From Oxalobacteraceae bacterium (GTDB taxonomy: Bacteria > Pseudomonadota > Gammaproteobacteria > Burkholderiales > Burkholderiaceae_D), in contig JAJTGC010000005.1 of NCBI GenBank assembly GCA_021298975.1, positions 67,340-116,591 of the forward strand: 49,252 nucleotides of DNA, in the 5' to 3' direction. This document shows positions 14,149 to 36,007 of this stretch, piece after piece; the first letter of the stretch is position 1, and each line of letters begins with the position of its first letter. Position numbers and translations under genes: made by a program. The notes under the pieces were generated by a model that saw only the letters and a list, made by a program, of their open reading frames with translations, had not been told where the DNA came from and did no database searches.

Positions 14149-14166
14149 TGTCAATATTCAGTGACA
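14149..14166. promoter_or_regulatory. PpsR/CrtJ-type operator box 1
   Basis: An exact TGT-N12-ACA motif within a 7-bp inverted repeat (ATTGTCA at 14147-14153, TGACAAT at 14162-14168). This is the recognition pattern of the aerobic photosynthesis repressor PpsR/CrtJ. It would overlap the -10 of the candidate promoter that begins at 14129, so bound protein would block RNA polymerase. Confidence 0.75.
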
Positions 14167-14174
14167 ATTAAAAG

Positions 14175-14192
14175 TGTAAACGCCTGTTTACA
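14175..14192. promoter_or_regulatory. PpsR/CrtJ-type operator box 2
   Basis: A second exact TGT-N12-ACA motif, TGTAAAC-GCCT-GTTTACA, a perfect 7-bp palindrome. It lies 26 bases from box 1, the kind of tandem spacing that supports cooperative binding of PpsR tetramers. It is 98 bases before the pucB start. Repression under oxygen and light, and release under low oxygen, is inferred from the known role of PpsR. Confidence 0.75.
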
Positions 14193-14289: not shown

Positions 14290-14442
14290 ATGTCTGACAG
14301 AGACAAGGTTTGGCCTACCGGCCTCACAGAGGCAGAGTCTGAAGAGATTCATCGCCATCTGATCCAGGGTACGCAGCTGTTCGGGATGATTGCCGCATTC
14401 GCCCACCTGCTCGCGTATATCTATTCACCTTGGCTTCACTAA
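14290..14442 (+). CDS. pucB: Light-harvesting LH2 beta subunit
   Basis: A 50-residue antenna peptide. I start it at ATG 14290, with AAGGAG 7-12 bases upstream; a longer in-frame reading from 14161 would run through the operator. The two conserved histidines are present 18 residues apart: His21 in EEIHRHL and His39 in AHLLAY, the axial ligand of one ring bacteriochlorophyll. The single membrane helix spans about 27-46, and the end PWLH is typical of beta chains. With the alpha chain it forms the peripheral LH2 ring that passes light energy to the LH1-reaction centre core. First gene of pucBAC, 18 bases before pucA. Confidence 0.95.
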   Translation: MSDRDKVWPTGLTEAESEEIHRHLIQGTQLFGMIAAFAHLLAYIYSPWLH

Positions 14443-14460: not shown

Positions 14461-14685
14461 ATGATTTACGGAAAAATGTGGTGTGTCGTTAAGCCGTCGG
14501 TGGGTATTCCCATCATCATCGGTGCGGTCGCTGTAGGTTCGTTTCTGGTGCACCTGTCACTGACACTGAACACGACCTGGGTGAAGAAATTTCTAAATGG
14601 CAATGCCGCACAGGTATCGGCAATCCACTCGGACACGGTACAACCCGTGGCGATGCTGGTTGCTCAAGATCCTGCGCGAAAGTAG
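14461..14685 (+). CDS. pucA: Light-harvesting LH2 alpha subunit, B800-820-like residues
   Basis: A 74-residue antenna peptide with AGGAGA just upstream. The N-terminal pattern MxxGKxWxVVxPxxGIP is that of LH2 alpha chains, unlike LH1 alpha; Met1 is the expected B800 ligand and His31 binds the ring pigment. In B800-850 complexes residues 44 and 45 are Tyr and Trp, which hydrogen-bond the pigments and shift absorption to 850 nm. Here they are Phe44 and Leu45 (TTWVKKFL), the same pair seen in the B800-820 complex (LH3) of Rhodoblastus acidophilus. A 27-residue tail of low hydrophobicity follows. A blue-shifted antenna is therefore predicted. Confidence 0.95.
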   Translation: MIYGKMWCVVKPSVGIPIIIGAVAVGSFLVHLSLTLNTTWVKKFLNGNAAQVSAIHSDTVQPVAMLVAQDPARK

Positions 14686-14784: not shown

Positions 14785-16185
14785 ATGCAGACACCTACCG
14801 TTCAATCAGAAATTCGACGTGGCTGGGCCAGAATCGGGTCCAGATTCCTTCCTTTCGCTGACGCCGCGACACCGGACCTTCCGCTCTCGCGTCTGCTCAG
14901 GCTATCGCTTTTTCAAGTATCGGTCGGCATGGCACTGGTGCTGATGATCGGTACCCTTACACGCGTGATGATTGTCGAACTCAAAGTGCCTGCGGCACTG
15001 GTCGGCGTCATGATTGCTTTGCCTCTGATCTTTGCGCCTTTTCGCGCCATCATTGGTTTTCGCTCGGATCATCATCGCTCTGCCTTGGGCTGGCGCCGCG
15101 TACCTTATCTCTGGATGGGGACGATGGTGCAGTTTGGCGGGCTGGCCATCATGCCATTTGCGCTTCTGGTTTTGTCAGGTATGGGTCATGCCTCGCATGC
15201 GCCCGCATGGGTGGGGCATATGGCTGCAGGTATTGCCTTTCTGCTGGTGGGGGCGGGTTTGCACACCACCCAGACCGTCGGTCTGGCGCTGGCCACGGAT
15301 CTGGCCACCCCCGAGTCTCGCCCCAAAGTCGTGGGGCTCATGTACGTGATGCTCTTGCTGGGCATGATCGTCAGCGCCATCATTTTCGGTGCGGCGCTCG
15401 CCGAGTTCAGTCCCGGGCGTCTGATCCGCGTGATTCAGGGCGCGGCCATCATGACCATGGTGTTGAATGTGACCGCGCTGTGGAAACAGGAGTCGCGCAG
15501 TCGCGGCCGCGCCGGCGCACCGGCCGTGGCACCCGATTTCCGCCTGTCCTGGCAAAGTTTCTGCGAAGGCGAGCATGCCGTACGGCGGCTGACCGCCATT
15601 GGCCTGGGTACCATGGCGTTTACCATGGAGGACGTGCTGCTCGAACCCTACGGTGGCGAGATTCTGGGCTTGAGCGTGGGCGCGACCACCTCGCTGACCG
15701 CGGCACTGGCCGTGGGTGGTTTGCTGGGATTCGGATTTGCCTCGCGCGTCCTGAGCCGGGGGGCCGATCCTCTGCGGCTCGCAGCCGTCGGCGCTGCGGT
15801 CGGGTTACCGGCTTTTATGCTGGTGATCTTTTCCGCGCCCTTGGCCATGCCGCCGCTGTTTGCGCTGGGAACGCTCTTGATCGGATTGGGTGCTGGTCTG
15901 TTCGGCCACGGCACGCTGACAGCCACCATGAACCTTGCGCCCGCAAGCCAGAGCGGTCTCGCACTGGGGGCTTGGGGTGCGGTACAGGCATCCGGCGCAG
16001 GTGTTGCCGTTGCTTTGGGTGGCATTTTTCGGGATATCGCCGCCGCAGTGGGTGGTCCTGCGTTTGGTTATATGAGCGTTTATGCGCTTGAGGTGATATT
16101 GCTGGTGATTACCTTGATTGTCATGACACCGCTGATACGGGGAAAATCGTCTTTTCAAGATTTGGGCAATAATACGAACACTTGA
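14785..16185 (+). CDS. pucC: PucC-family bacteriochlorophyll transporter / LH2 assembly factor
   Basis: A 466-residue membrane protein with about twelve hydrophobic segments and the PucC/LhaA signature features: SLFQVSVGMALVL in the first helix, the loop GFRSDHHRSALGWRRVPYLW, then GVGLHTTQT-like helix 4 (GAGLHTTQTVGLALATDLA) and MEDVLLEPYGG midway. The family belongs to the MFS fold and is thought to bring bacteriochlorophyll to nascent antenna peptides; PucC is needed for LH2 assembly in Rhodobacter. It follows pucBA by 99 bases containing a stem-loop, the standard pucBAC order. Confidence 0.92.
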   Translation: MQTPTVQSEIRRGWARIGSRFLPFADAATPDLPLSRLLRLSLFQVSVGMALVLMIGTLTRVMIVELKVPAALVGVMIALPLIFAPFRAIIGFRSDHHRSALGWRRVPYLWMGTMVQFGGLAIMPFALLVLSGMGHASHAPAWVGHMAAGIAFLLVGAGLHTTQTVGLALATDLATPESRPKVVGLMYVMLLLGMIVSAIIFGAALAEFSPGRLIRVIQGAAIMTMVLNVTALWKQESRSRGRAGAPAVAPDFRLSWQSFCEGEHAVRRLTAIGLGTMAFTMEDVLLEPYGGEILGLSVGATTSLTAALAVGGLLGFGFASRVLSRGADPLRLAAVGAAVGLPAFMLVIFSAPLAMPPLFALGTLLIGLGAGLFGHGTLTATMNLAPASQSGLALGAWGAVQASGAGVAVALGGIFRDIAAAVGGPAFGYMSVYALEVILLVITLIVMTPLIRGKSSFQDLGNNTNT

Positions 16186-24106: not shown

Positions 24107-25654
24107 TTATTTGGGTGCGATCTCATCGTTCCTTTGCGGCTCGGGCGTGAGGGTGCCTGCTGCGCCTGCCTCGTGTTTCCATCCCAGACTCGCCGCCAAC
24201 TCCTGCGCGAGACGCTGATACCCTTTCACGGTGAAATGGGTCAGGTCTTTCGACATCAGCGAAGGATTGGCCAGTAGCCACGCATAGGCCGACCCTTGTC
24301 CGCCCATGGCCGTCTGCATGCTCCAGACCTTGCACGCATGGCGCGCACCCACCTCTTTCTGAATCGTCGATATTTTTTCGTGGATGGCAGAAAACCGCAA
24401 CAAGTCCACAGCCGAGTATTCGTAGCTCACGCGGTTGTTCGATTTGAGCTGGTGTCCGTGGTTATTTTTCTGTGCGTGCGCGTTTTTTCTTTTGTTTGTT
24501 TTTTTTATCTTGCGTGACCGGGGTACCAGAATGCCCCGATCGCCAGGCGCAATTAACAGGCATTCTGATTGAGGAAATACTTGACGCAAATTTTTCAGTG
24601 ACTGCTCCAGAGTTTTTGCATAACCGGCAGCGTCGAAGTGTGCCGCATTGCCCTCGTTGGTACCGTATTCCAGCATGACTAGATCGTATTGTCTGTCTTT
24701 GAAGTATTCGGCAAAATACGTGGGATCGAGCTGCTGCCATGCGCGAACCGTTGCGCCCGGTATCCCGAACGAATCCAAGGTGGCCAACGGCGCCTGTCGA
24801 TAATTCAGAAACATGCCATTCAGCTGCACCGGCATCTCGTTCACGCGAATCTTCACGACGGATAAGGCACGATTACCGACAATGGTCAGCGAGCCAAAGC
24901 CCTGCGGGCCACTCAGACTGATCTTGTTTTCCGGGCCATCATCGACACTGATCGAGATACTGCCATTCCCTGGTGCCTGATGAAAAAACAGTTCGACACT
25001 GTTGACATCGGCTTCCCCCGTGTCGTTACGCAAATCAAACCACAGGTAGGCCTCAGGTTCACCTTGCAATACATTCAAGCCAACGCCGGTCGGTATGCTC
25101 GCACTGCGAGAGATATACGCCAGCTCCGATTTCCATTGGTCCATACAGTGCCGGCGCAGCGGCAGGTTCACGCCGGCTCGACCCATCGTCAACGGAATGA
25201 ACTGGGTTCGGGTTTTCAGTCCCTGCGCCAGAAAAATTCGCTTCAGTTCGTAAGAGAAGGATCCTGCTGCCAAATGGCTATCCCCCCAGATACCGACTCG
25301 CATCGCTTGCGCGCGCAAGAGGGCTGGTTGCGTCACGGCGCTTGCGATCTGCGTCGTATCCGACGTCTGCGCTGCGGTTATGGCGAGCCGCGCGGTCAGG
25401 ATACCCAGCTCATCGAGTTCTTCGGCGTCGGGCGGCTCAAGGATGTCTTTATTCTGCTGTAAAGGTGCTGGATTGATCTTGGTCTTGACTGGGCACTGAA
25501 GATCGCCAATCGCCGAGCCCTGCTGAAAAATGAAATGTCGCCCCGGCTCAATCGCCAGCGATGTCAGCGGTGCACAGGCCAGCGCCAGCAGCAGCAAGCC
25601 GCACCAACCCCTTGCCGCAGAGTGAGCTCTGGCCATCAAAAATTGCGTCAGCAT
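24107..25654 (-). CDS. Exported SGNH hydrolase with basic insertion
   Basis: A 515-residue secreted protein with a signal peptide (about residues 1-35). Block I is WGDSHLAAG with Ser126, block III is EYGTNEGN and the catalytic Asp-His is in DLTHFTVKGYQ. Between the first two lies a beta-sandwich-like domain of about 150 residues. Between block III and the end is a striking basic insertion (PRSRKIKKTNKRKNAHAQKN). It is a paralogue of the protein at 33454-34968, sharing the domain order and the RxGxNLP stretch after block I. Such proteins add or remove acyl groups on polysaccharides. It is the distal gene of a three-gene minus-strand arm. Confidence 0.85.
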   Translation of the reverse strand: MLTQFLMARAHSAARGWCGLLLLALACAPLTSLAIEPGRHFIFQQGSAIGDLQCPVKTKINPAPLQQNKDILEPPDAEELDELGILTARLAITAAQTSDTTQIASAVTQPALLRAQAMRVGIWGDSHLAAGSFSYELKRIFLAQGLKTRTQFIPLTMGRAGVNLPLRRHCMDQWKSELAYISRSASIPTGVGLNVLQGEPEAYLWFDLRNDTGEADVNSVELFFHQAPGNGSISISVDDGPENKISLSGPQGFGSLTIVGNRALSVVKIRVNEMPVQLNGMFLNYRQAPLATLDSFGIPGATVRAWQQLDPTYFAEYFKDRQYDLVMLEYGTNEGNAAHFDAAGYAKTLEQSLKNLRQVFPQSECLLIAPGDRGILVPRSRKIKKTNKRKNAHAQKNNHGHQLKSNNRVSYEYSAVDLLRFSAIHEKISTIQKEVGARHACKVWSMQTAMGGQGSAYAWLLANPSLMSKDLTHFTVKGYQRLAQELAASLGWKHEAGAAGTLTPEPQRNDEIAPK

Positions 25655-25708
25655 GGGTAACAGGCCTGTTGGGGGCAGCCTTTGGATGGGTGTCTACCGT
25701 GTGTCATC

Positions 25709-26503
25709 TCAAGTATTGGAAGAGGGGTCGATGGTTTTTAAAACGGCCGTAGCAATTCTCTGTAGTCCCTGCGGACTGAAGTGAATGCCATCATCAGCGC
25801 GAAGGTTGATTTTTTTTCCCTCTGCATCTGTCACGGTGCGCACGTAAGCTTGATCCAGACGGCCAATCAATGCTTCGGTTGAGACAAAATCAAAGCCGTA
25901 TTTTTTCATGTTATCCCGAAAAATCGGATTTTGAACAGTGGCGCCCCGGTGTACGCGCGTCTGCTTCATCGTCGGCAGGCCGATCCAGATCAGATGTATT
26001 TTTTTTTCTTTTGCAAACTCACATATCTCGCTGACTCTTGCGCTGTAGCGCGCCTCCCATTCCGGCGATGGAAAACGGATCACTTGTTTTTTTTCGTAGA
26101 TGTCCCAGGGATCGTTCGGGCCCAGAAAAATCACTACTGTGGTGAGCTTGTGCGCGACGATTTCACTTTTTATTTTTTCAACCCAATCCAGCTGGCGCTT
26201 GATGCTCAATCCGGTGCTTTGCTGACTCTCATCGCGCAACAGCCAATCGGGATGGGCTGCTTTCAGCTGACGCATGATGATCGGTGCGATACCCTGCATC
26301 ATCGAATCACCCGCAAAAAGGATGCGTTGCACGCTGGGCTTTTGGGGGCGCGTCTCGGCTGTCGGCTTGGGCGGCCCAGCGATGAGCTCCGAGGTCGGCA
26401 GCGTATCAGGATTCGTGCGCAGCAGCAGCAGACAAGCCAGCAGCAACAGCAAGGCCATCGCCAAGGCAATCATCCGATATTGTTTGTTCGGTATGGACAT
26501 CAC
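25709..26503 (-). CDS. Membrane-anchored SGNH hydrolase, DUF459-like
   Basis: A 264-residue protein with an N-terminal membrane anchor (residues 11-29, very Leu-rich) that should place the catalytic domain in the periplasm. Block I is LFAGDSMMQGIAP with Ser67, block III is IFLGPNDPWD and block V is DDGIHFSPQG with the catalytic Asp and His. This pattern matches the DUF459 group of SGNH proteins. It lies 54 bases upstream of the larger SGNH gene on the same strand, with the acyltransferase 49 bases before it; the three are likely one operon. Role in O-acyl transfer or removal on an envelope polymer is inferred. Confidence 0.83.
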   Translation of the reverse strand: MMSIPNKQYRMIALAMALLLLLACLLLLRTNPDTLPTSELIAGPPKPTAETRPQKPSVQRILFAGDSMMQGIAPIIMRQLKAAHPDWLLRDESQQSTGLSIKRQLDWVEKIKSEIVAHKLTTVVIFLGPNDPWDIYEKKQVIRFPSPEWEARYSARVSEICEFAKEKKIHLIWIGLPTMKQTRVHRGATVQNPIFRDNMKKYGFDFVSTEALIGRLDQAYVRTVTDAEGKKINLRADDGIHFSPQGLQRIATAVLKTIDPSSNT

Positions 26504-26552
26504 TTGGTGCGCGGGTCGTCTCGTAGATTACGGTAGTTTGTGGAGGCGTTTG

Positions 26553-28424
26553 TCATCGTTTGCTGCTGGTACTGCACGGCACCACCTTCAAAGTTTTATT
26601 GATGTCACTGGTCGTCGGTAGGGGCAGGCCGGCGACGTGCAAGATTTCTGTTGTCATTGCACGTACCCCTTTTTTTGTCAGATGGATGTGGTCTTTGCCG
26701 AAGTATTCCTTATGGCTCTGCCCGATGGCGCGCCAGTCAATCAGTTTGACATTTTTAAATTCTTTGCTCAGACCCTTGAGTAACTCGTTATTGGATTTTT
26801 CCCAGCGGCGCGGCGCCTTGACGTTGATGAAGACAACCTTAGGTACATCGGAGAGCAATGTCATCACTTCTCTGACTTGAAATTCATATAAATAACCGTT
26901 CGTCCCAAGGTGAATGATAACGATGTCGGCCAGCTCATTTCTTTCTTTCAGCTCCCGCAGACGATTTAATCCATCCTTGCCCTGACGGCCAATTGCTGCA
27001 TCAATCTCCAGGCCTTCGACTTTCTTTGCGAGGTGGTCACTGGCGCCCAGCAATACAGAATCGCCGAGCACGGTGATCAGCGGTTTTGATTTGACAGAAA
27101 ATTTATTCGACACAGAGCGAATGCAGGCGGCGCGCATCTGATGCGCCACCAGCTCGCCTGGATGGAGCGAGTCATCGGTCTGCGGCAGGTCATCGCTGAC
27201 CGAGTTGGCCAGTGCGTTGTTCTTTTCAGCGGGCGCAGGGCGCATTTGTATGGTCAGAACTGCCGACGCAATACCGATGAAACAGGCCAGACAAAATCCA
27301 TAGCGCTGCCTGGCTGGCCATCGAAATACCTCACCTGTTCTGACGGGATTTTCAATCAGCTGGTAAGAGAGTTCTGTCAGGATCAGAGTCAGCGTCAGGC
27401 GGATCGTCGCCTGCGCCCAGGCGTTATCAGAGATTTCGAATTCGGGGCGCAGCAAAGCGAAGACAGGCCAGTGCCACAAGTACAGTCCATAGGACCGCTT
27501 GCCCAGCCACGCGAGTGGGCGAACGCCCAGCCAGACGGACAATGCATTGTCTTTTTGCGAGGCAGCGAATACCAGGCCAATCGAAAACAGACACACCCAG
27601 AAAAAACCACCCTGATACAAGGCGCGATCATATTCCGTTACGAACAGCATCGCCCACAGCAGAGCGCTGAGGCAGACAAGGCCAAGAAAATCAGTCAGCG
27701 CGAGGGAGCGGTGTGTGGCGGGCAGGGCGTGAGACTGCCAGGGATTCCAGGCGGCGGCCAGGCTTGCGCCTAAAAATAATCCCATGGTGTGCGTATCCGT
27801 TCCCAGATAGATACGGCTGGGATCCTGAGACTGTGGATAGCCGTACCGGGCAGATAAGTAAATCATCCACCCCGAGCTCAGTAGCGCAAGAGCGGCCGCG
27901 ACGAACAAAACGCCACGCTCTCGAAAACGACGCAGTATCACCAGCAACAGCAAAGGCCAGACGATGTAGAACTGCTCTTCGATGGCCAGCGACCAAAGAT
28001 GTTGCAACAGGGCCGGGCGGCCGGACATCTCGAAATACGACTGTTCCGAAAAGATTTGCCACCAGTTGGAAAAATAAAACAGCGCCGGCAGCAAATCAGA
28101 GCGCGTGCGCCAGGCCGCATCCCTGACGAACCACTCTGTGACCAGAATGCAAAAAATAAGCAAGCCCAGAACTGCCGGAAATAATCGACGTGCGCGTTTC
28201 AGATAAAAATTACCAATGGCAATCGTGCCATTTTTCTGGAATTGCCGGATTAACTGGGCTGTAATCAGAAAGCCCGAGACGGTGAAAAAAATATCGACAC
28301 CCAGAAAACCCGAAGGAAACAAGCCGGGAATATCCAGATGATAAAAAATGACGGCGAGTACCGCGAATGCACGCAAGCCCTCAAGGCCGGGCAGATAGTC
28401 GGTAGGTTTCTGCGGGTACGTCAC
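26553..28424 (-). CDS. Acyltransferase-3 protein with C-terminal SGNH domain (OafA/OatA-like)
   Basis: A 623-residue two-part protein. Residues 1-370 form a ten-helix acyltransferase-3 domain, opening with YLPGLEGLRAFAVLAVIFYH, followed by GFLGVDIFFTVSGFLI and RRARRLFP-type motif (KRARRLFPA). Residues from about 430 form a periplasmic SGNH domain with LGDSVLLGAS, HLGTNGYLY and KDHIHLTKKG. In this architecture the membrane part brings an acetyl group across the membrane and the SGNH part places it on a sugar, as in peptidoglycan O-acetylase OatA and O-antigen modifiers. First gene of the minus-strand SGNH arm. Confidence 0.92.
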   Translation of the reverse strand: MTYPQKPTDYLPGLEGLRAFAVLAVIFYHLDIPGLFPSGFLGVDIFFTVSGFLITAQLIRQFQKNGTIAIGNFYLKRARRLFPAVLGLLIFCILVTEWFVRDAAWRTRSDLLPALFYFSNWWQIFSEQSYFEMSGRPALLQHLWSLAIEEQFYIVWPLLLLVILRRFRERGVLFVAAALALLSSGWMIYLSARYGYPQSQDPSRIYLGTDTHTMGLFLGASLAAAWNPWQSHALPATHRSLALTDFLGLVCLSALLWAMLFVTEYDRALYQGGFFWVCLFSIGLVFAASQKDNALSVWLGVRPLAWLGKRSYGLYLWHWPVFALLRPEFEISDNAWAQATIRLTLTLILTELSYQLIENPVRTGEVFRWPARQRYGFCLACFIGIASAVLTIQMRPAPAEKNNALANSVSDDLPQTDDSLHPGELVAHQMRAACIRSVSNKFSVKSKPLITVLGDSVLLGASDHLAKKVEGLEIDAAIGRQGKDGLNRLRELKERNELADIVIIHLGTNGYLYEFQVREVMTLLSDVPKVVFINVKAPRRWEKSNNELLKGLSKEFKNVKLIDWRAIGQSHKEYFGKDHIHLTKKGVRAMTTEILHVAGLPLPTTSDINKTLKVVPCSTSSKR

Positions 28425-28445
28425 AGCGATGCTCGAAAAATGCAG

Positions 28446-28477
28446 ACCGCTGATTATATGGAGTAATCAGCGGTTTT
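28446..28477 (-). terminator. Hairpin between thrH and the acyltransferase gene
   Basis: ACCGCTGATTA (28446-28456) pairs perfectly with TAATCAGCGGT (28464-28474) around a 7-base loop. On the minus strand an imperfect T tract follows a few bases later, which would end thrH transcription; on the plus strand TTTT is immediate but no gene precedes it. Confidence 0.6.
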
Positions 28478-28553
28478 GATAAAGCTTTGGCACGAAATCA
28501 GGATTTCGTGTGCGCGGGTGGAAAATATTGCTAAATTATTATTCTTCTTGACA

Positions 28554-29159
28554 TCAGTTCATCGCGTTTTCAATCAGCGAAAGCAGGTCGTCATAATCAT
28601 CCACCGCAGTAAATTGAGGAAACTGGGCTTTGACATTCACGGGTGCATGGAACAGAAACCCCGCATCGGCTGCTCCCAGCATGCTGGTGTCATTGAATGA
28701 ATCACCAGCGGCAATCACCCGGTAATTGAGTTGCTGGAGCGCCAGCACAGCCGCTCGCTTTTGATCCGGAATGCGCAGTCGGTAGTCGACAATTCGGTCA
28801 TCATCGACCAGCAGCGTGTGGCAAAGCAGGGTGGGCATGCCCAGTTGCCGCATGAACGGTGCAGCGAACTGTTCAAAGGTGTCCGAGAGGATGAGTAGCT
28901 GGACTTTCGAGCGCAAGACATCCAGAAAATCGCGCGCCCCTGGGAGCGGTTCCAGAGTACCAATCACCGCCTGGATGGAAGATAGCGTCAGCCCGTGCTG
29001 ATCCAGTATCTCGAGGCGGCTGCGCATCAGCTTGTCGTAATCCGGTTCGTCCCGCGTTGTGCGGCGCAATGCCTCGATGCCGGTTTTCTCTGCCACGGCA
29101 ATCCAGATTTCCGGCGTCAGAACGCCTTCCATGTCCAGCGTCACTATGGTTTGTTTCAT
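28554..29159 (-). CDS. thrH: ThrH phosphoserine phosphatase / homoserine phosphotransferase
   Basis: A 201-residue HAD enzyme started at the ATG at 29159. The ThrH form of the HAD motif, LDMEGVLTPEIWI (nucleophile Asp9, with Glu where most HAD enzymes have Asp), is followed by TRDEPDYDKLM, LILSDTFEQF (motif II) and AAGDSFNDTSML (motif IV). In Pseudomonas ThrH removes phosphate from phosphoserine and can pass it to homoserine, linking serine and threonine synthesis. It stands alone between the two arms of the SGNH/acyltransferase locus, and a hairpin separates it from the downstream arm. Confidence 0.92.
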   Translation of the reverse strand: MKQTIVTLDMEGVLTPEIWIAVAEKTGIEALRRTTRDEPDYDKLMRSRLEILDQHGLTLSSIQAVIGTLEPLPGARDFLDVLRSKVQLLILSDTFEQFAAPFMRQLGMPTLLCHTLLVDDDRIVDYRLRIPDQKRAAVLALQQLNYRVIAAGDSFNDTSMLGAADAGFLFHAPVNVKAQFPQFTAVDDYDDLLSLIENAMN

Positions 29160-29507
29160 GGGTTGTGCCAATGCTTGTTGAAAGTTCGCTTCGCAACGGT
29201 TCTATTTAACAGCTGCTCATGCAAATGATATCCGCGCAAATCTGTTTCTGCATGATTTATTGCCAATATAGTAATCAAGATAATAGTCAGCTCGCGTGAA
29301 TGGAACAAAAATCAGAACCTTGTATTGGGTCTGTTGGTACAATCAAAATCAGTTGAAGTTCTGATAAAACGGCGTTGAAAATTTGTGCGGCCGGGGATAA
29401 CGCGCCAGCGCTGATTTTTCTGGTCACCAAAACGCATACCCATGATTGCTGGCTCGTCATCGGTGACCCTTCCAGCACCCTCCTGAACGCAAAACAACAA
29501 TATCAAA
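29160..29507. other. Divergent region between thrH and the MBOAT arm
   Basis: About 350 AT-rich bases with no convincing gene or promoter of consensus quality. Both flanking genes point outward, so both promoters should lie here. Confidence 0.4.
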
Positions 29508-30602
29508 ATGAAAGCATCGTTGAGCAGCACCTACAGTTTTATCGCAGCACTTGTTTTTGTGCATGCTGCTCAGGCCGCCGATCCGAATCCGACGATCCCG
29601 TCGGTCGGTATTCAGGAAAATGCCAGGCTGTTATCCGGCGCTGAATTGCCGTCCGGATTACCTCCGGCCTTGAATACCGAGCAGTGGAAACGCTACGCCA
29701 ATCAGGTACGTTCCAACTGGACCCAATACGTCACAAAAATCGCCAATCCCATGATGGCCTGGTCACAGAAAGAAGTGCCGGCATTCCGGGAGACGGTGTT
29801 TTACCCTTTTTCCGGTCCGGATTTTTCCAGTGTCTACCAGATGTACCCGAATGCGCGGCGCTACGTGATGGTGGCGATGCAGCGCGCCTATCAGCCGATT
29901 GATCTGCGCACACTCAATCCGGTAACGCTGGATCAGACGCTTAATGTGCTGACTGCCGCGTGGGAAAACTACGGGCGTGATGGATTTTTCGTCACCGAGT
30001 ACCTGGATCAGTATGTGCACCAGAATCAGGTTCGTATTGGTGCCAGCACCCTTCTCGTGACGACATTGCAGCTTCAGCGTTTCGTAATTGACGAGGTGGT
30101 GCCTATCGAGTGGAATGAGCAGGGCGAGATCGTCGAATTGCCAGCGACCACCAAAGAGTGGACATCGGTACGTTTCAAACTCACCAAGAACGGCCGTCCA
30201 GTTACGCTGGATTATCTGCGCATTGATTTGTCCAACAAAGGGCTTCAGACAGCATCCAAAAATTACACTTTGATCAAACAGCTCGCTTCCAACCCAACGC
30301 TGTTCAAAGCCGCATCACATCTGCCACAAAACCAAAATTTTTCGATGACGGCGGATGCCGTGATCGCCAACGCGCCCTTCATCGTCCAGGACGAAACCGG
30401 TATCCAGTACACCAAACTGGATGCGGGCTTCAGCACTCAGCTCTATGGCAAATTCGAGCGCGCCCATCCTGCCTTCAATGCCTATCAGCGGGATCTGGCG
30501 AAAGCCTTTGAAGATCGCAAAGATATTCGCCCACTGAATTTTCGCATGGGGTATTACAAGGACGGTACCTATGCGGTAATTACGGCGACCCGTAAAAAAT
30601 AA
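29508..30602 (+). CDS. Secreted protein of unknown function, first gene of the MBOAT arm
   Basis: A 364-residue protein with a signal peptide (hydrophobic to about residue 23, cleavage near QAADP). The mature protein contains a segment rich in aromatic residues (FYPFSGPDFSSVYQMYP) resembling a family of unannotated secreted proteins of proteobacteria; no catalytic motif is visible. It precedes the MBOAT gene by 12 bases and the two SGNH genes, and is almost surely co-transcribed with them, so a part in the same envelope or exopolysaccharide function is likely. No ribosome binding site of note precedes the ATG. Confidence 0.7.
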   Translation: MKASLSSTYSFIAALVFVHAAQAADPNPTIPSVGIQENARLLSGAELPSGLPPALNTEQWKRYANQVRSNWTQYVTKIANPMMAWSQKEVPAFRETVFYPFSGPDFSSVYQMYPNARRYVMVAMQRAYQPIDLRTLNPVTLDQTLNVLTAAWENYGRDGFFVTEYLDQYVHQNQVRIGASTLLVTTLQLQRFVIDEVVPIEWNEQGEIVELPATTKEWTSVRFKLTKNGRPVTLDYLRIDLSNKGLQTASKNYTLIKQLASNPTLFKAASHLPQNQNFSMTADAVIANAPFIVQDETGIQYTKLDAGFSTQLYGKFERAHPAFNAYQRDLAKAFEDRKDIRPLNFRMGYYKDGTYAVITATRKK

Positions 30603-30614
30603 GGTCAGCTCGGT

Positions 30615-32012
30615 TTGGTATCCTCCAACTACCTGCTGGCGCTGCCGATATTGGTTGCGCTGTATCTGCTCAGTCAATCCCAAATTACCCGACTCTGCCT
30701 GTTGCTGCTGGGTGGCGTAATCACCCTGTGGTCGGACGGCTGGACCAACTTTCTGCTGATTCTGGTACTGATGGTCGTGACCTGGTGGGGTGCGATGCTG
30801 ATTCAGCGCCACTGCCCGGGAAATCGACAGGTCTTGGGCTTATTGATTGCGCTGGAAATCAGTCCACTGTTGCTGCACAAATTCATCAAGGCAGGTTTGT
30901 GGGGCCTGGTGGATCCGGCCTGGCTGGAGGCGCAGGGCCTCTCGGGATGGTTGCCGCCACTGGGCCTGTCCGTGATGACCTTTCAGGCGGTGAGCTACAC
31001 CGTCGATCGCTACCGCCGCCAGTTGGATACCGGTGCCTGGCCGCACTACGCGGTGTACATGACCTTCTTCCCGCATCTGGCCGCGGGCCCGATTTTGCGG
31101 GCATCAGATTTCGTCAACCAGCTGGTCAACAGGCGCGATGTCAGCAGTGACGATGTCCGTGAAGGCTTGTGGCGCATCCTCCGTGGCCTGGTAAAAAAAC
31201 TCATTTTGTCCGATGTCATCGCCAAGGCCGGTGTCGATCCGATATTCGCGGACCCGGGAAGCTTTTCAGCACTGGAAGTGCAGATCGCCTTGCTGGCATA
31301 CACCTTCCAGATCTATCTGGATTTTTCCGGGTACACCGACGTCGTGATTGGTTCTGCCCGCTTGCTGGGTCTCAGGCTGCCAGAAAATTTCAATCGTCCC
31401 TATCACGCCTCATCCATTGCCGAGTATTGGCGCCGCTGGCATATGAGTCTCTCTGCCTGGGTCACGCAATACGTGTATTACCCTCTGGGGGGCAGCCGGG
31501 TCGAGCGGTGGAAAATCTATCGCAATGTGATGATCTCGATTTTGCTGCTGGCGGTATGGCATGGTGTCACACTCAATTTTCTCTTGTATGGTTTGTTACA
31601 TGGTATGGCCGTCTGCGTTAATCGCTGGCTGGGCTTTCAGCGCAGGTGGCAGACATGGCGAGTCACTTACGAAAAGCCTATGCAGGTCGCCGGGTGGATA
31701 GCGACATTCAGCTTTGTGGTGATTGCACGCATTCTGTTCAAGACCCCGACGCTCGATGAGGCAGCAGCTTTTGTTGGCCATCTGACTGAATCCGAATTGT
31801 CCGGCGCACCGCGCTTCGCCATCATGTTTTGGGTTTGCTTGATTACGGGTATGTTGTCCTGTTTTGCGCCGATAGGGGTAACGGAAGGTGCGCGTACTGC
31901 GTTCAAGCGGCAGCATCCTTTCATTCAGGGCTTCGTTTTTGGTGTGGTCTTATTGGCGGGCGCTTATTTGTCAGGTGGGCAGGCGCTGAATTTCATTTAC
32001 AGGAATTTCTGA
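30615..32012 (+). CDS. MBOAT-family O-acyltransferase (AlgI/PatA-like)
   Basis: A 465-residue membrane protein with many hydrophobic helices, best started at the TTG at 30615 (AAGGT upstream); the first in-frame ATG would remove two helices. MBOAT hallmarks are present: YLDFSGYTDVVIGSARLLG, NFNRPYHASSIAEYWRRWHMSLS and the helix with the catalytic His, AVWHGVTLNFLLYGLLHG (His near residue 316). AlgI- and PatA-type members carry acetyl groups across the inner membrane for alginate or peptidoglycan O-acetylation, working with SGNH partners in the periplasm. Two such partners follow immediately. Confidence 0.93.
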   Translation: MVSSNYLLALPILVALYLLSQSQITRLCLLLLGGVITLWSDGWTNFLLILVLMVVTWWGAMLIQRHCPGNRQVLGLLIALEISPLLLHKFIKAGLWGLVDPAWLEAQGLSGWLPPLGLSVMTFQAVSYTVDRYRRQLDTGAWPHYAVYMTFFPHLAAGPILRASDFVNQLVNRRDVSSDDVREGLWRILRGLVKKLILSDVIAKAGVDPIFADPGSFSALEVQIALLAYTFQIYLDFSGYTDVVIGSARLLGLRLPENFNRPYHASSIAEYWRRWHMSLSAWVTQYVYYPLGGSRVERWKIYRNVMISILLLAVWHGVTLNFLLYGLLHGMAVCVNRWLGFQRRWQTWRVTYEKPMQVAGWIATFSFVVIARILFKTPTLDEAAAFVGHLTESELSGAPRFAIMFWVCLITGMLSCFAPIGVTEGARTAFKRQHPFIQGFVFGVVLLAGAYLSGGQALNFIYRNF

Positions 32013-32014
32013 CG

Positions 32015-33454
32015 ATGCTTGCAAGCGACCGACTGGCACCCCCATTTCATATGCTGGCCATATTGGCCGTGGGCCTGGTGACGGTACTGCCCAGCTACTA
32101 CATTAACGACATGGCGTCATTTCGACCCACCCGAGCGCTGGGCCCACTGGTGTGGTCGCAACCCGCTGAGACATCAGCACCGGTAGTGCAAGCGTCAATC
32201 CCCGACGAAGCGTTGGCTGCCCACGTGACGCAACCAGCGCAAACCACTGACGAGCCACCCTCAGACGATTTGCCAGGCAAGCCCGATGCCGAGAAGGTAG
32301 CGGCAGCAGCAGCTGCCGCCGTGCCCGCAACAAAAAATGTCGGTGTCCCAAACTTGTCTGGCGAAGAACATCTGAGCGGATTTTTTCGGACGCTCAAGGA
32401 GGGCAAGCAAGGTCCGGTCAGAGTATTGCATTACGGTGATTCCACGCTGGCGGGTGACGGCATTACCAAAACGGTGCGCAGTCGTATGCAAGCCAGCTTT
32501 GGCAATGGTGGCCCAGGATTTTTCGTCGCGGGCATGGACCCTCGCTGGATGCGTCGCGATGATGTGCGTGTTGATCGAACTGGTGAATGGAATGTACAAA
32601 CCATTCTTTTCGGTGGTAACAATGGCCGTTACGGGCTGGGTGGTGTGGTGGCAAAACCGCAAGGTAAAAGTCAGATCCTGATTTCGCCACCCAAACCCAA
32701 ATCATCGCTGGGTGAGCATGTTGAGCTGTATGCACAAAAATCCCGGCGCGACGAAGTACCCGTATTCGAAGTCAACGGTAAAAAAATTGACGCGATAAAG
32801 CGTATCGAGCATCAGACTTTCGATCAGTGGGTTGTCGAGAGCACCGATCCCATCACGCGCGTGAAGATCACGGTGACCGAGCCCAATCTTGAGGTCTACG
32901 GCACGGTTGTTGAGGCAGCGCGTGGCATCACATGGGAAACAACTGCGGTGGTCGGTATCGCCAGTGGATCCATACGCCAGTTCGATCCGGCGCATCTTGC
33001 CGAGCAAACCGCTGTCCGCAATCCGGATCTGATCGTCATCATGTTAGGCGGGAATGAAACCAACCACGGTGGCTTGATGACACCGGAAGGACGCATTTAC
33101 AAGGAAGGCTTTGCTGCGGCACTGAAGATATTGCGTCAGGGTGCGCCCAAGGCGGCTTGCCTGGTCATGAGTCCACTGGATCAGGCGATACTCAATGACG
33201 ATGGTCGCATCACTTCGCGCCCGCTGATCGAGCGCATGGTGACTTATCAGCGGCAGGTCAGTCTGGACAACGGTTGCGCCTTCTGGAACACCTGGCAGTA
33301 CATGGGCGGCAAGGAGTCGTTCGCACGCTGGCTCGCGCAAGGCCTGGCGTGGACCGATCTCAATCATCTGACCGAAAAAGGACTGCAACGTATCGGAAAT
33401 GCCTTCTCTGATGCACTGCTGCAGAGTTATCAGCGTTTTGAGACAAGCCCGTAA
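32015..33454 (+). CDS. Exported SGNH protein, first MBOAT partner
   Basis: A 479-residue protein started at the ATG at 32015 (AGGA upstream), two bases after the MBOAT stop. An N-terminal hydrophobic helix (HMLAILAVGLVTVLPSYY) anchors or exports it. A Pro/Ala-rich linker including a run of eight Ala follows (to about residue 110). The SGNH domain has LHYGDSTLAGDG (Ser near residue 141), LGGNETNHGG in place of the usual GTN block, and DLNHLTEKG with Asp-His. In MBOAT systems an SGNH partner takes the acetyl group from the membrane protein and places it on the polymer. It overlaps the next gene by 1 base. Confidence 0.85.
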   Translation: MLASDRLAPPFHMLAILAVGLVTVLPSYYINDMASFRPTRALGPLVWSQPAETSAPVVQASIPDEALAAHVTQPAQTTDEPPSDDLPGKPDAEKVAAAAAAAVPATKNVGVPNLSGEEHLSGFFRTLKEGKQGPVRVLHYGDSTLAGDGITKTVRSRMQASFGNGGPGFFVAGMDPRWMRRDDVRVDRTGEWNVQTILFGGNNGRYGLGGVVAKPQGKSQILISPPKPKSSLGEHVELYAQKSRRDEVPVFEVNGKKIDAIKRIEHQTFDQWVVESTDPITRVKITVTEPNLEVYGTVVEAARGITWETTAVVGIASGSIRQFDPAHLAEQTAVRNPDLIVIMLGGNETNHGGLMTPEGRIYKEGFAAALKILRQGAPKAACLVMSPLDQAILNDDGRITSRPLIERMVTYQRQVSLDNGCAFWNTWQYMGGKESFARWLAQGLAWTDLNHLTEKGLQRIGNAFSDALLQSYQRFETSP

Positions 33455-34968
33455 TGATGAAAAAAACAGCCGATCGTTTATTGCTGGTGCTGGCGCTCCT
33501 GCCCGCCATCGTCGCATCGGAAGAGACAGCGCCGATCGAGATCACCTCGACAGTCACGCATTCGATGTTCAGCGTCGCAGGCGGCAAAGACATGGACGCG
33601 CTGAAGTGTACGAAACCACAACGAAGAAAATCGCCAGAGCCTCGGCCCGCACCTTCGCAAGGCGATAATCAAAAACAAGATCCGGTACCCGCAGGCAGCG
33701 AAGAGGAAATCATTGCGCTGAGTGAAGAAGAGGAAGCGGCCATGCTCAAGAAAGCATTCGCGCCGCCCAGTCCGGAAGAACTGCGTCGTAACCTGCCGAA
33801 ATCAGAGTGGATAAAAAAATTCCATGCCACGTTGCTGGGTGCGTCGCGCCAGCGTATCGCGCGTGTCGGTATGTGGGGCGGCAGCCACATGGCAGCCGAA
33901 TTTTTTACCGCTGAATTTCGACAAGCACTCCAGGACCGCTATGGGGTGGGCGGCCCCGGCCATATCAATCTTTTGTATGGTCGTCCGGGATTGAACCTGC
34001 CGGTCAGTGCTTTTTGTCGAACCGGTGAATGGCACGAGGCGCTGCCGCCCAGAACGGTCAGCTCACCCCACATCGTCTCGGGTTTGGGTTTGTATGCCAT
34101 GACAGCCAATACACCGCAGGCTGCCCTTGAAATTGATCTGCGATCCACGCATGCGAAATATCGGGCCCATCATGCAGCGCTGCATTTCCTGCGGCAGCCC
34201 GGAGGCGGCAGCTTTGACTTGATCGTCGACGGTGAAAATATCGGCACGCTGGATACCGAGGGTCAGCGTGCGATCGGGGTGGTAGAGATCAGTGCCGCAA
34301 TGCCGCTGTCCCGTATCGAGTTGCGTGTGAGCCAGGCAAAGCGCGTGACGTTGCTCGGTCTCTTCGCTGAAGATCATCAGGGTGTGGTGCTCGATAATTT
34401 TGGCATTGCGGGTGCTGCCGGCAATTACTGGCGCGGTGTCGACCCCGAGCTTTTCAAAGCAGTAGCCACCGAGCGGCCTTATGAGGCGGTCGTACTCGCT
34501 TACGGTACCAATGATGTCACCGGCAAAACCTGGAATCCCGAGCGTTATCGCCAGGATTATCGTCAGACGCTGATTGCCATGCGGGCGGCATTGCCACAGG
34601 CCGCCTGCATTCTGGTAACGCCGGGGGATAGGGTGACCCGGTTTTACGTCAAAAAAATCGTCAAGGTCAAGATTGGCAAACGCAAAACCGTCAACAAAAC
34701 GCAGGTAACCACGCATTACGATCTGCTGACTTTCCCGCAGCGACACGCACAGGCTGCCGCGATTCAGCGTGAATTGGGAGACGAGTATCAATGCATGGTC
34801 TGGGACATGTCGATCGTCATGCGTGAGATGGGCGGCGCGTATGCCTTGATGAAGCGCTCCCCACCGTGGATGGCCAATGACCTGATACACCTCACCCCTG
34901 CGGGCTATCGTGAAATGGCAAAGCGCTTCGTGGGGTGGCTGGAGCTCTCCAGCGGCAAGGGTCCGTAG
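33454..34968 (+). CDS. Exported SGNH protein with GGSH variant, second MBOAT partner
   Basis: A 504-residue protein whose ATG overlaps the preceding stop (TAATG). Signal peptide about residues 1-22, then a long acidic/Pro-rich linker with a Glu run. Block I reads MWGGSHMAAE, so the usual Asp of GDS is Gly while Ser (near residue 144) is kept; block III is AYGTNDVTG and the catalytic pair is in NDLIHLTPAG. It shares overall design with the protein at 24107-25654, including a basic insertion before the last block (KKIVKVKIGKRKTVNK). It is the last gene of the plus-strand arm. Confidence 0.83.
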   Translation: MMKKTADRLLLVLALLPAIVASEETAPIEITSTVTHSMFSVAGGKDMDALKCTKPQRRKSPEPRPAPSQGDNQKQDPVPAGSEEEIIALSEEEEAAMLKKAFAPPSPEELRRNLPKSEWIKKFHATLLGASRQRIARVGMWGGSHMAAEFFTAEFRQALQDRYGVGGPGHINLLYGRPGLNLPVSAFCRTGEWHEALPPRTVSSPHIVSGLGLYAMTANTPQAALEIDLRSTHAKYRAHHAALHFLRQPGGGSFDLIVDGENIGTLDTEGQRAIGVVEISAAMPLSRIELRVSQAKRVTLLGLFAEDHQGVVLDNFGIAGAAGNYWRGVDPELFKAVATERPYEAVVLAYGTNDVTGKTWNPERYRQDYRQTLIAMRAALPQAACILVTPGDRVTRFYVKKIVKVKIGKRKTVNKTQVTTHYDLLTFPQRHAQAAAIQRELGDEYQCMVWDMSIVMREMGGAYALMKRSPPWMANDLIHLTPAGYREMAKRFVGWLELSSGKGP

Positions 34969-35098
34969 CGCATACGAAAGTCCTGTGGGCCAGCGGCCAT
35001 GTATGATCCAGTGGTTCGGGTCGCAAAGCCTGCCCGTGAACCAGACCGTCGTGATCTGAGGTGATTAATTGCGCATCAATCAGCCAGGTATCTTTCGT

Positions 35099-36007
35099 AT
35101 GAAATTATGGTCCCTACGTCGTCTCGCCGGACTTTCTTTCTTCCTCTTGTTCATGTGCCAGCAATCCGGATCCGCAGCGCCCCTGTCCGACAAGCTCACC
35201 GAGAAGTCCTTTGTGACATCCGATCGGGTACGTCTTACCTATGTCACCGGTGGGTCGGGTGATATTGATCTTGTTTTCATTCCGGGGTGGCTGATGCCTG
35301 CCCAGATCTTTCAGCCACAACTGGAATATTTTTCGAAAAACTACCGGGTGCATTCGCTCAACCCCAGATCGCAGGGCACATCCGATATTTACCGCGGTCC
35401 ACGTTTGGCAGAGCTGCGCGCACGCGATATCAGGGAATTCATCGCCCACCTCAAATCCAAGCGATTTGTTTTGCTGGGCTGGTCGCTGGGCGTGATGGAA
35501 TCACTGGATTACCTCACGCGCTACGGGCAAGGTGGCCTGATGGCTCTGGTGCTGATTGATAACTCGATTGGTGAGGGGGATCCGCCCAAGGCTCGCCGCA
35601 ACGCCCGTGCAAAAATGCCGGAAGCGCAATTTACGAAGTACATCAAGGAGTTTGCGCGCGCGATATTCAAAAGCACACCGGATGCGGACTTTATTGAAGT
35701 GGTGGAGAAATCCGGGCTGCGGCTGGCAAAAAACCCATCCGATGCTTTCGATGTCCTGACCAAGCCCTATGATCGCCAATACTATCGCGATGCTGTCTAC
35801 GCCACGAATCGACCGGTTTGGTATGCGATCACGCCGCGCTACATCGAGCAATCGCAGCTGTTTTTGAACAAGCATCCAATGGGGCAGACGAAAATCTACA
35901 GCGAAGCGGGACATGCCTTGTTTGTCGATGAGGCGGATGAATTCAACCGCGATCTGGAAGTCTTTCTTCTGACCAGCGAGGAAGCTGAAAAAATCAGCGA
36001 AGACTGA
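35099..36007 (+). CDS. Exported alpha/beta hydrolase
   Basis: A 302-residue protein started at the ATG at 35099, which gives a good signal peptide (RRLAGLSFFLLFMCQQSGSAA); an in-frame TTG 30 bases earlier is the alternative. The fold elements are in order: oxyanion strand VFIPGW, nucleophile elbow LLGWSLGVME (Ser), the later strand with the candidate acid, and His in SEAGHALFVDE. Substrates of this broad family are esters, lactones and thioesters. It lies 130 bases after the SGNH genes on the same strand, so it may belong to the same function, but it has its own spacing and perhaps its own promoter. Confidence 0.82.
   Translation: MKLWSLRRLAGLSFFLLFMCQQSGSAAPLSDKLTEKSFVTSDRVRLTYVTGGSGDIDLVFIPGWLMPAQIFQPQLEYFSKNYRVHSLNPRSQGTSDIYRGPRLAELRARDIREFIAHLKSKRFVLLGWSLGVMESLDYLTRYGQGGLMALVLIDNSIGEGDPPKARRNARAKMPEAQFTKYIKEFARAIFKSTPDADFIEVVEKSGLRLAKNPSDAFDVLTKPYDRQYYRDAVYATNRPVWYAITPRYIEQSQLFLNKHPMGQTKIYSEAGHALFVDEADEFNRDLEVFLLTSEEAEKISED

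Follow-up and report, generated by a model that had tools for sequence, protein, structure and literature searches.

A pucBAC locus predicted to encode a blue-shifted LH2 antenna, and conservation of its Val41-Phe44-Leu45 residues among Burkholderiales

The pucBAC locus and its copy number

We analysed a window of 49,252 nucleotides (the whole stretch of DNA under study) from an Oxalobacteraceae bacterium and found in it an ordinary pucBAC set on the forward strand. The first gene, pucB (14290..14442, +), encodes an LH2 beta chain of 50 amino acids (Pfam LHC, 35.4 bits). It is followed by pucA (14461..14685, +), which encodes an LH2 alpha chain of 74 amino acids (Pfam LHC, PF00556, 34.5 bits; cut-off 23), its frame running from the ATG at 14461 to the stop at 14683-14685, and by pucC (14785..16185, +), which encodes an LH2 assembly protein of 466 amino acids (Pfam PUCC, 502.8 bits). 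Counted from Met1, the alpha chain carries Ser27, His31 (14551-14553) and Trp40, and its codons 41-45 (Val-Lys-Lys-Phe-Leu; 14581..14595, +) are the spectral tuning positions: Val41 (14581-14583), Phe44 (ttt, 14590-14592) and Leu45 (cta, 14593-14595). The His31, Phe44 and Leu45 assignments of the first-pass annotation were thus confirmed. The beta chain has its ligand at His39, a further histidine at His21, and Gln29 (codon 14374..14376, +) at beta -10, the place of the B800-bonding Arg. The locus shows the general marks of an LH2, namely LHC alpha and beta chains whose start Met and ligand His are spaced as in LH2, and PucC; the distance from Met1 to His31 is that of the PucD and Rhodoblastus acidophilus (Rbl. 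acidophilus) alpha chains. No pigment-synthesis gene was found among the 29 reading frames of the window that were scanned with Pfam. Elsewhere, positions 24107-36007 hold a cluster that looks like cell-surface acylation genes: it encodes a DUF459 protein, a membrane acyltransferase, an MBOAT and three GDSL-like lipases that pass the Pfam cut-off.

The source genome (2.69 Mb, 131 contigs, 88.6% complete) was searched for LHC chains at E <= 1. All four matches were above the cut-off, and they correspond to a puf pair on one contig and the puc pair on the contig of the window; the same search matched 7 of 14 control genomes, none of them above the cut-off. We then considered the 145 related genomes searched with LHC at E <= 0.001, which included 20 others of the same genus. 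A puc pair was present in 17 of these 20 and two pairs in none, and no second pucA copy with Tyr-Trp was found either in the 88.6%-complete source genome or in any of the 17 genus members that carry puc, in agreement with the proposal that this is the only puc set. Among the 18 puc alpha chains of the genus, the window included, 17 have Phe44-Leu45 and one, in G007, has Tyr44-Leu45. The three genomes of the genus in which no puc pair was detected are G014 (100% complete), which has the core antenna pair only, and G005 (94% complete) and G012 (93% complete), which gave no LHC match; since G014 retains the core pair alone, LH2 can be lost within the genus. Among named records, the nearest are bins titled 'Oxalobacteraceae bacterium', of which some come from ponds, and the freshwater habitat of the group is taken from these record titles.

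Conservation in the MIYGK-type family and regulation of puc

Alpha chains were read from 99 loci (the window, 24 loci of relatives and 74 loci from a contig scan), giving 85 distinct genes over 180 bases, from which three of another type and one broken by N were left out. The remaining 81 genes all have Val41 and Leu45, with Phe44 in 79 and Tyr44 in two; because the contig scan used as queries peptides taken from the alpha chain of the window, among which NTTWVKKF contains Phe44, this count is biased towards window-like genes. In all 81, residue 42 or 43 of the alpha chain, adjoining the tuning residues (14581-14589 in the window), is basic. Two further samples, less biased than the peptide scan, were searched with a mixed profile. 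They comprised 399 genomes from the order and 398 from the phylum, the source genome being in both and some genomes having been met before, and at most 14 candidates were scored per genome. Matches at E <= 1e-5 were obtained in 30 genomes of the order sample and 12 of the phylum sample.

In the pooled set, from which a disrupted copy (L159) and a copy broken by N (L131) were left out, 98 distinct genes start with MI, 97 of them with MIYGK. The alignment of relatives' alpha chains, which the first-pass annotation had proposed as a check, recovered Val41 together with Phe44-Leu45 in 92 of these 98 genes; the others read V-Y-L (two), I-Y-H (two), L-Y-Y (one) and F-F-M (one) at positions 41-44-45, so that Phe44 is retained in 93 and Leu45 in 94. 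Across the set, third codon positions show a mean difference of 53%, and all six Leu codons occur at position 45; given this divergence, the sharing of Phe44-Leu45 is not mere recent descent. The conservation is not due to chance. Ser27 and the residues Ile2-Tyr3 are present in all 98 genes. Among the chains outside the family in these samples, the distinct ones comprise four with F41-F44-L45, five with V41-F44-L45, three with F41-Y44-W45 and four single others. The classical Phe41/Tyr44-Trp45 type occurs in two genomes of the window's own family (G029 and G069). On a PucC tree of 99 distinct loci out of 114, whose backbone is weak, residues 44 and 45 have each changed seven or more times.

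Several members and records of the family deserve separate mention. Tyr44-Leu45 was observed in L039 (from G007 in the window's genus; the same record as L067) and in L118 (from a metagenome-assembled genome (MAG) titled Limnohabitans), and these are probable separate returns of one hydrogen-bond donor. MIYGK-type variants with Tyr44-Tyr45 (L145), Tyr44-His45 (L156 and L160) and Phe44-Met45 (L158) were also read, suggesting other colours within the same family. In L159 (G407), the reading frame of the beta chain passes into a short MIYGKL remnant, and the remaining alpha chain starts elsewhere; this appears to be a pseudogene or an assembly error. Four bins titled Bordetella parapertussis or Rickettsia typhi (L083, L084, L094 and L108) carry LH2 genes of the Burkholderiales type, and their titles are probably wrong. 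The pattern V41-F44-L45 is also present in a named strain, Polynucleobacter kasalickyi VK13 (L088).

The beta chains were compared at the B800 side. Gln occupies beta -10 in all 94 readable beta chains of the family, and Arg is found there in L051, L052 and L057 outside the family, in L144 and L161-L163 of the order sample and in all 10 phylum-sample loci outside the order (L164-L173). A bond from beta Arg30, at -10 from the ligand His, is credited with about 10 nm of red shift in B800, and in Rhodobacter sphaeroides (Rba. sphaeroides) alpha Asn3 holds the B800 ligand (PMC8775250). The effect of Gln(-10) on B800 is uncertain because Gln can still donate a bond; by analogy, the 799 nm band reported for Limnohabitans planktonicus suggests that it would be small. 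We found no mention of a beta -10 Gln in the literature, in searches that were not aimed at this residue, and make no claim that it is absent from print. Tentatively, the MIYGK-type LH2 of freshwater Burkholderiales may be a distinct subtype in which the usual C3-acetyl donors of both pigment rings have been replaced (alpha Tyr44/Trp45/Tyr41 by Phe/Leu/Val; beta Arg(-10), the B800 donor, by Gln, with the fixed Ile2-Tyr3 next to the B800 ligand) and in which Phe and Tyr have replaced one another at residue 44 on several occasions. If this is true, the family offers a set of naturally occurring mutations that bear on antenna tuning. The fixed Gln(-10), the Tyr44 variants in G007 and L118, and Polynucleobacter kasalickyi VK13 make the hydrogen-bond rule testable in nature.

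The region upstream of pucB was inspected for TGT-N12-ACA, the pattern that PpsR binds. Two boxes, probable PpsR/CrtJ sites, lie at 14149..14166 (+; -141 from the pucB ATG) and 14175..14192 (+; -115), the second beginning 8 bases after the first. The whole window holds 8 such patterns against 10.1 expected by chance, so the window-wide count alone means nothing. Across the 76 loci for which 250 or more upstream bases were available, by comparison with 0.063 per locus expected from base shuffles, at least one box lies within 300 nt upstream in 69 and two or more in 40. The seven box-free loci are L071, L051 and L057 (both of another LH2 type), and L090, L115, L116 and L118, which form one clade of the PucC tree and two of which are titled Limnohabitans. 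The source genome also has a PpsR/CrtJ gene (466 bits; cut-off 275). The recurrent boxes and this gene favour oxygen- or light-dependent control over constitutive expression, and puc is probably under PpsR-type control. The suggestion that the antenna is constitutive therefore holds only in the sense that it is the sole form found; unregulated expression is what the paired boxes, their recurrence and the PpsR gene argue against.

Predicted absorption and alternative readings

Across nine LH2 structures, absorption lies at about 850 nm where there are two C3-acetyl hydrogen bonds, at about 825 nm where there is one and at about 800 nm where there is none (PMC9618040). The B800-820 complex of Rbl. 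acidophilus 7050 is described as the one-bond case, with Tyr41 as donor (PMC9618040, Table 1; PMC6988754); PucD is described as having Val at residue 41 and no substitute bond, and PucD-LH2 absorbs at 803 nm (PMC6988754, PMC9618040). By residue identity, the alpha chain of the window offers no C3-acetyl donor at positions 41, 44 or 45 (V41, F44 and L45). Among solved structures it scores best against the PucD chain 7ze3 (E 5e-16), ahead of the B800-820 chain 1ijd at 2.9e-11. Because Tyr44/Trp45 are Phe/Leu and Tyr41 is Val, the ring absorption is predicted to lie well blue of 850 nm. The blue shift that the first-pass annotation had expected from the loss of the Tyr44/Trp45 donors is thus supported by both the residues and the structure comparisons. 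Since no puc pair other than this Phe44-Leu45 one was found in the genome, the organism very likely has a blue-shifted antenna.

The measured analogues, PucD at 803 nm and an Rba. sphaeroides mutant at 826 nm, set a range of 803 to 826 nm. The latter, Tyr44Phe/Tyr45Leu, is reported as B800-826 (PMC8775250), a value given at 77 K (PMC6988754, PMC9618040). The Rba. sphaeroides alpha chain has Leu41 and Ser27; Ser27 is reported to bond the C13 keto group and is retained in the double mutant (PMC8775250), and its change alone is reported to have no effect (PMC9618040, PMC8775250). Since Ser27 is present in the window as in that mutant, the absorption may be nearer 826 nm. Other donors could also act: alpha Lys42 or Lys43, or beta Trp48, a beta Trp being the bond donor in two other LH2 complexes (PMC9618040). 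Phe44-Leu45 is on record with both about 804-806 nm and about 820 nm, and a value of 813 nm is probable by family membership.

Our overall explanation, to which we assign a probability of about 0.78, is that pucBA specifies an ordinary LH2 ring whose coupled BChl pair would lack a hydrogen bond to either C3-acetyl group, the Tyr44/Trp45 donors having been replaced by Phe/Leu and the substitute donor Tyr41 of B800-820 by Val. The ring pigments would absorb at about 805-820 nm, centred near 813 nm, beside a B800 band at about 800 nm, and the product would serve as the sole peripheral antenna found in the organism, probably under PpsR-type control.

An unlikely alternative is an LH4-like complex of the kind seen in PucD-LH2 and in the Roseobacter group, whose bands merge into one peak at about 800-806 nm. 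The V-F-(L/M) pattern is common to the window and PucD, and F44L45 is given as the motif of LH4 in aerobic phototrophs, which shows one peak at about 800 nm (tabulated at 804-806 nm; PMC12654162). V41-F44-L45 with Ser27 also recurs in six loci of family f95; plasmid records searched for an f95-type V-F-L chain gave no match, and a literature search on the identity of 9LT4 (a 'B-800/814' alpha chain) and 8Z81 returned no relevant paper. A merged peak is opposed by the two peaks of L. planktonicus, at 799 and 813 nm (PMC12654162), and by PucD itself, which has Val27 instead of Ser27, a beta Arg and a gamma subunit.

Somewhat less probable still is a B800-820 complex (LH3) like that of Rbl. acidophilus 7050, in which Phe44-Leu45, shared with the window, would be enough by itself for a band at 820 nm. 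In Rba. sphaeroides, the double mutant with Leu41 and Ser27 shows that about 820 nm can be reached without Tyr41, and the betaproteobacterium Rhodoferax antarcticus, with a sole puc operon, absorbs at 819 nm (PMC5374385); the latter chain, however, is Phe-Phe and was compared here at 44-45 only, and L. planktonicus peaks at 813 nm, not 820 nm (PMC12654162). Phe44-Leu45 alone is not diagnostic of B800-820 because it is also the motif of the LH4 complexes at about 800-806 nm (PMC12654162). The first-pass annotation had equated the window's antenna with the B800-820 form; this identity is not supported, because Val41 stands here in place of the bonding Tyr41. B800-820 should not be read from Phe44-Leu45 alone; residue 41, and possibly Ser27, are needed too.

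A concentric outer ring round the core, as in LHh of Gemmatimonas phototrophica, is very improbable. The beta chain does match chains of 7o0u/7o0v, entries for Gemmatimonas, at 2e-5, but it matches an LH2 chain much better, at 1.2e-21, its top score. The alpha chain matches 11 distinct chains (E <= 1), nine of which have nine copies in their entry and none of which belongs to 7o0u-7o0x, although a missed match is not proof. Such a ring was proposed for Limnohabitans on the grounds that the spectra are alike and that the Gemmatimonas genes may have come from a betaproteobacterium (PMC12654162).

Comparison with known antennae

The closest relevant spectrum for the bond-free LH2 proposed here is that of the peripheral antenna of Limnohabitans planktonicus, with bands at 799 and 813 nm (PMC12654162, Table 2), a likeness drawn through Limnohabitans-titled MAGs and not through its own pucA sequence. 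These MAGs of freshwater Burkholderiales (L089, L115 and L118) hold the same gene family, two with V-F-L and one with V-Y-L, and have an alpha chain of the MIYGK/MIYEK type and a beta chain with Gln(-10), like the window. Unlike in the window, pucBAC of L115 (Limnohabitans sp. ZLKRG32) lies between genes that were read by eye as carotenoid synthesis genes (crtI/crtC-like and crtB-like). The Phe44-Leu45 pattern, with its predicted blue shift, looks like a family-wide trait in lake bacteria and is not peculiar to one genome.

PucD-LH2 (LH4) of Rhodopseudomonas palustris (7ZE3) shares Val41, Phe44 and the absence of a donor at 45 with the window, but differs, besides Val27 and the beta Arg, in Met45; it is reported to be made in low light only, beside other puc copies, and to include the gamma subunit (PMC9618040). 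The B800-820 complex of Rbl. acidophilus 7050 (1IJD) shares Phe44-Leu45, but it has the Tyr41 donor and Ala27 and replaces B800-850 in low light.

Two antennae of this kind were described earlier. Rhodoferax antarcticus (2017), with its B800-819 complex, shares a single puc set and the lack of donors at 44-45, but it has Phe44-Phe45, its puc genes lie inside the photosynthesis gene cluster, and it is a purple nonsulfur bacterium (PMC5374385). Pseudohaliea rubra (2013) is an aerobic phototroph whose blue-shifted peripheral antenna (LH3; 804/821 nm) is formed regardless of light (PMC3679898); it is, however, a Gammaproteobacterium and is compared here, by its spectrum, with the antenna predicted for the window. 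Since both precede the present analysis, the antenna of the window is of a kind already described; to these descriptions are added the correction at residue 41, the family-wide conservation of the pattern, the Tyr44 variants that occur in nature and the beta -10 Gln.
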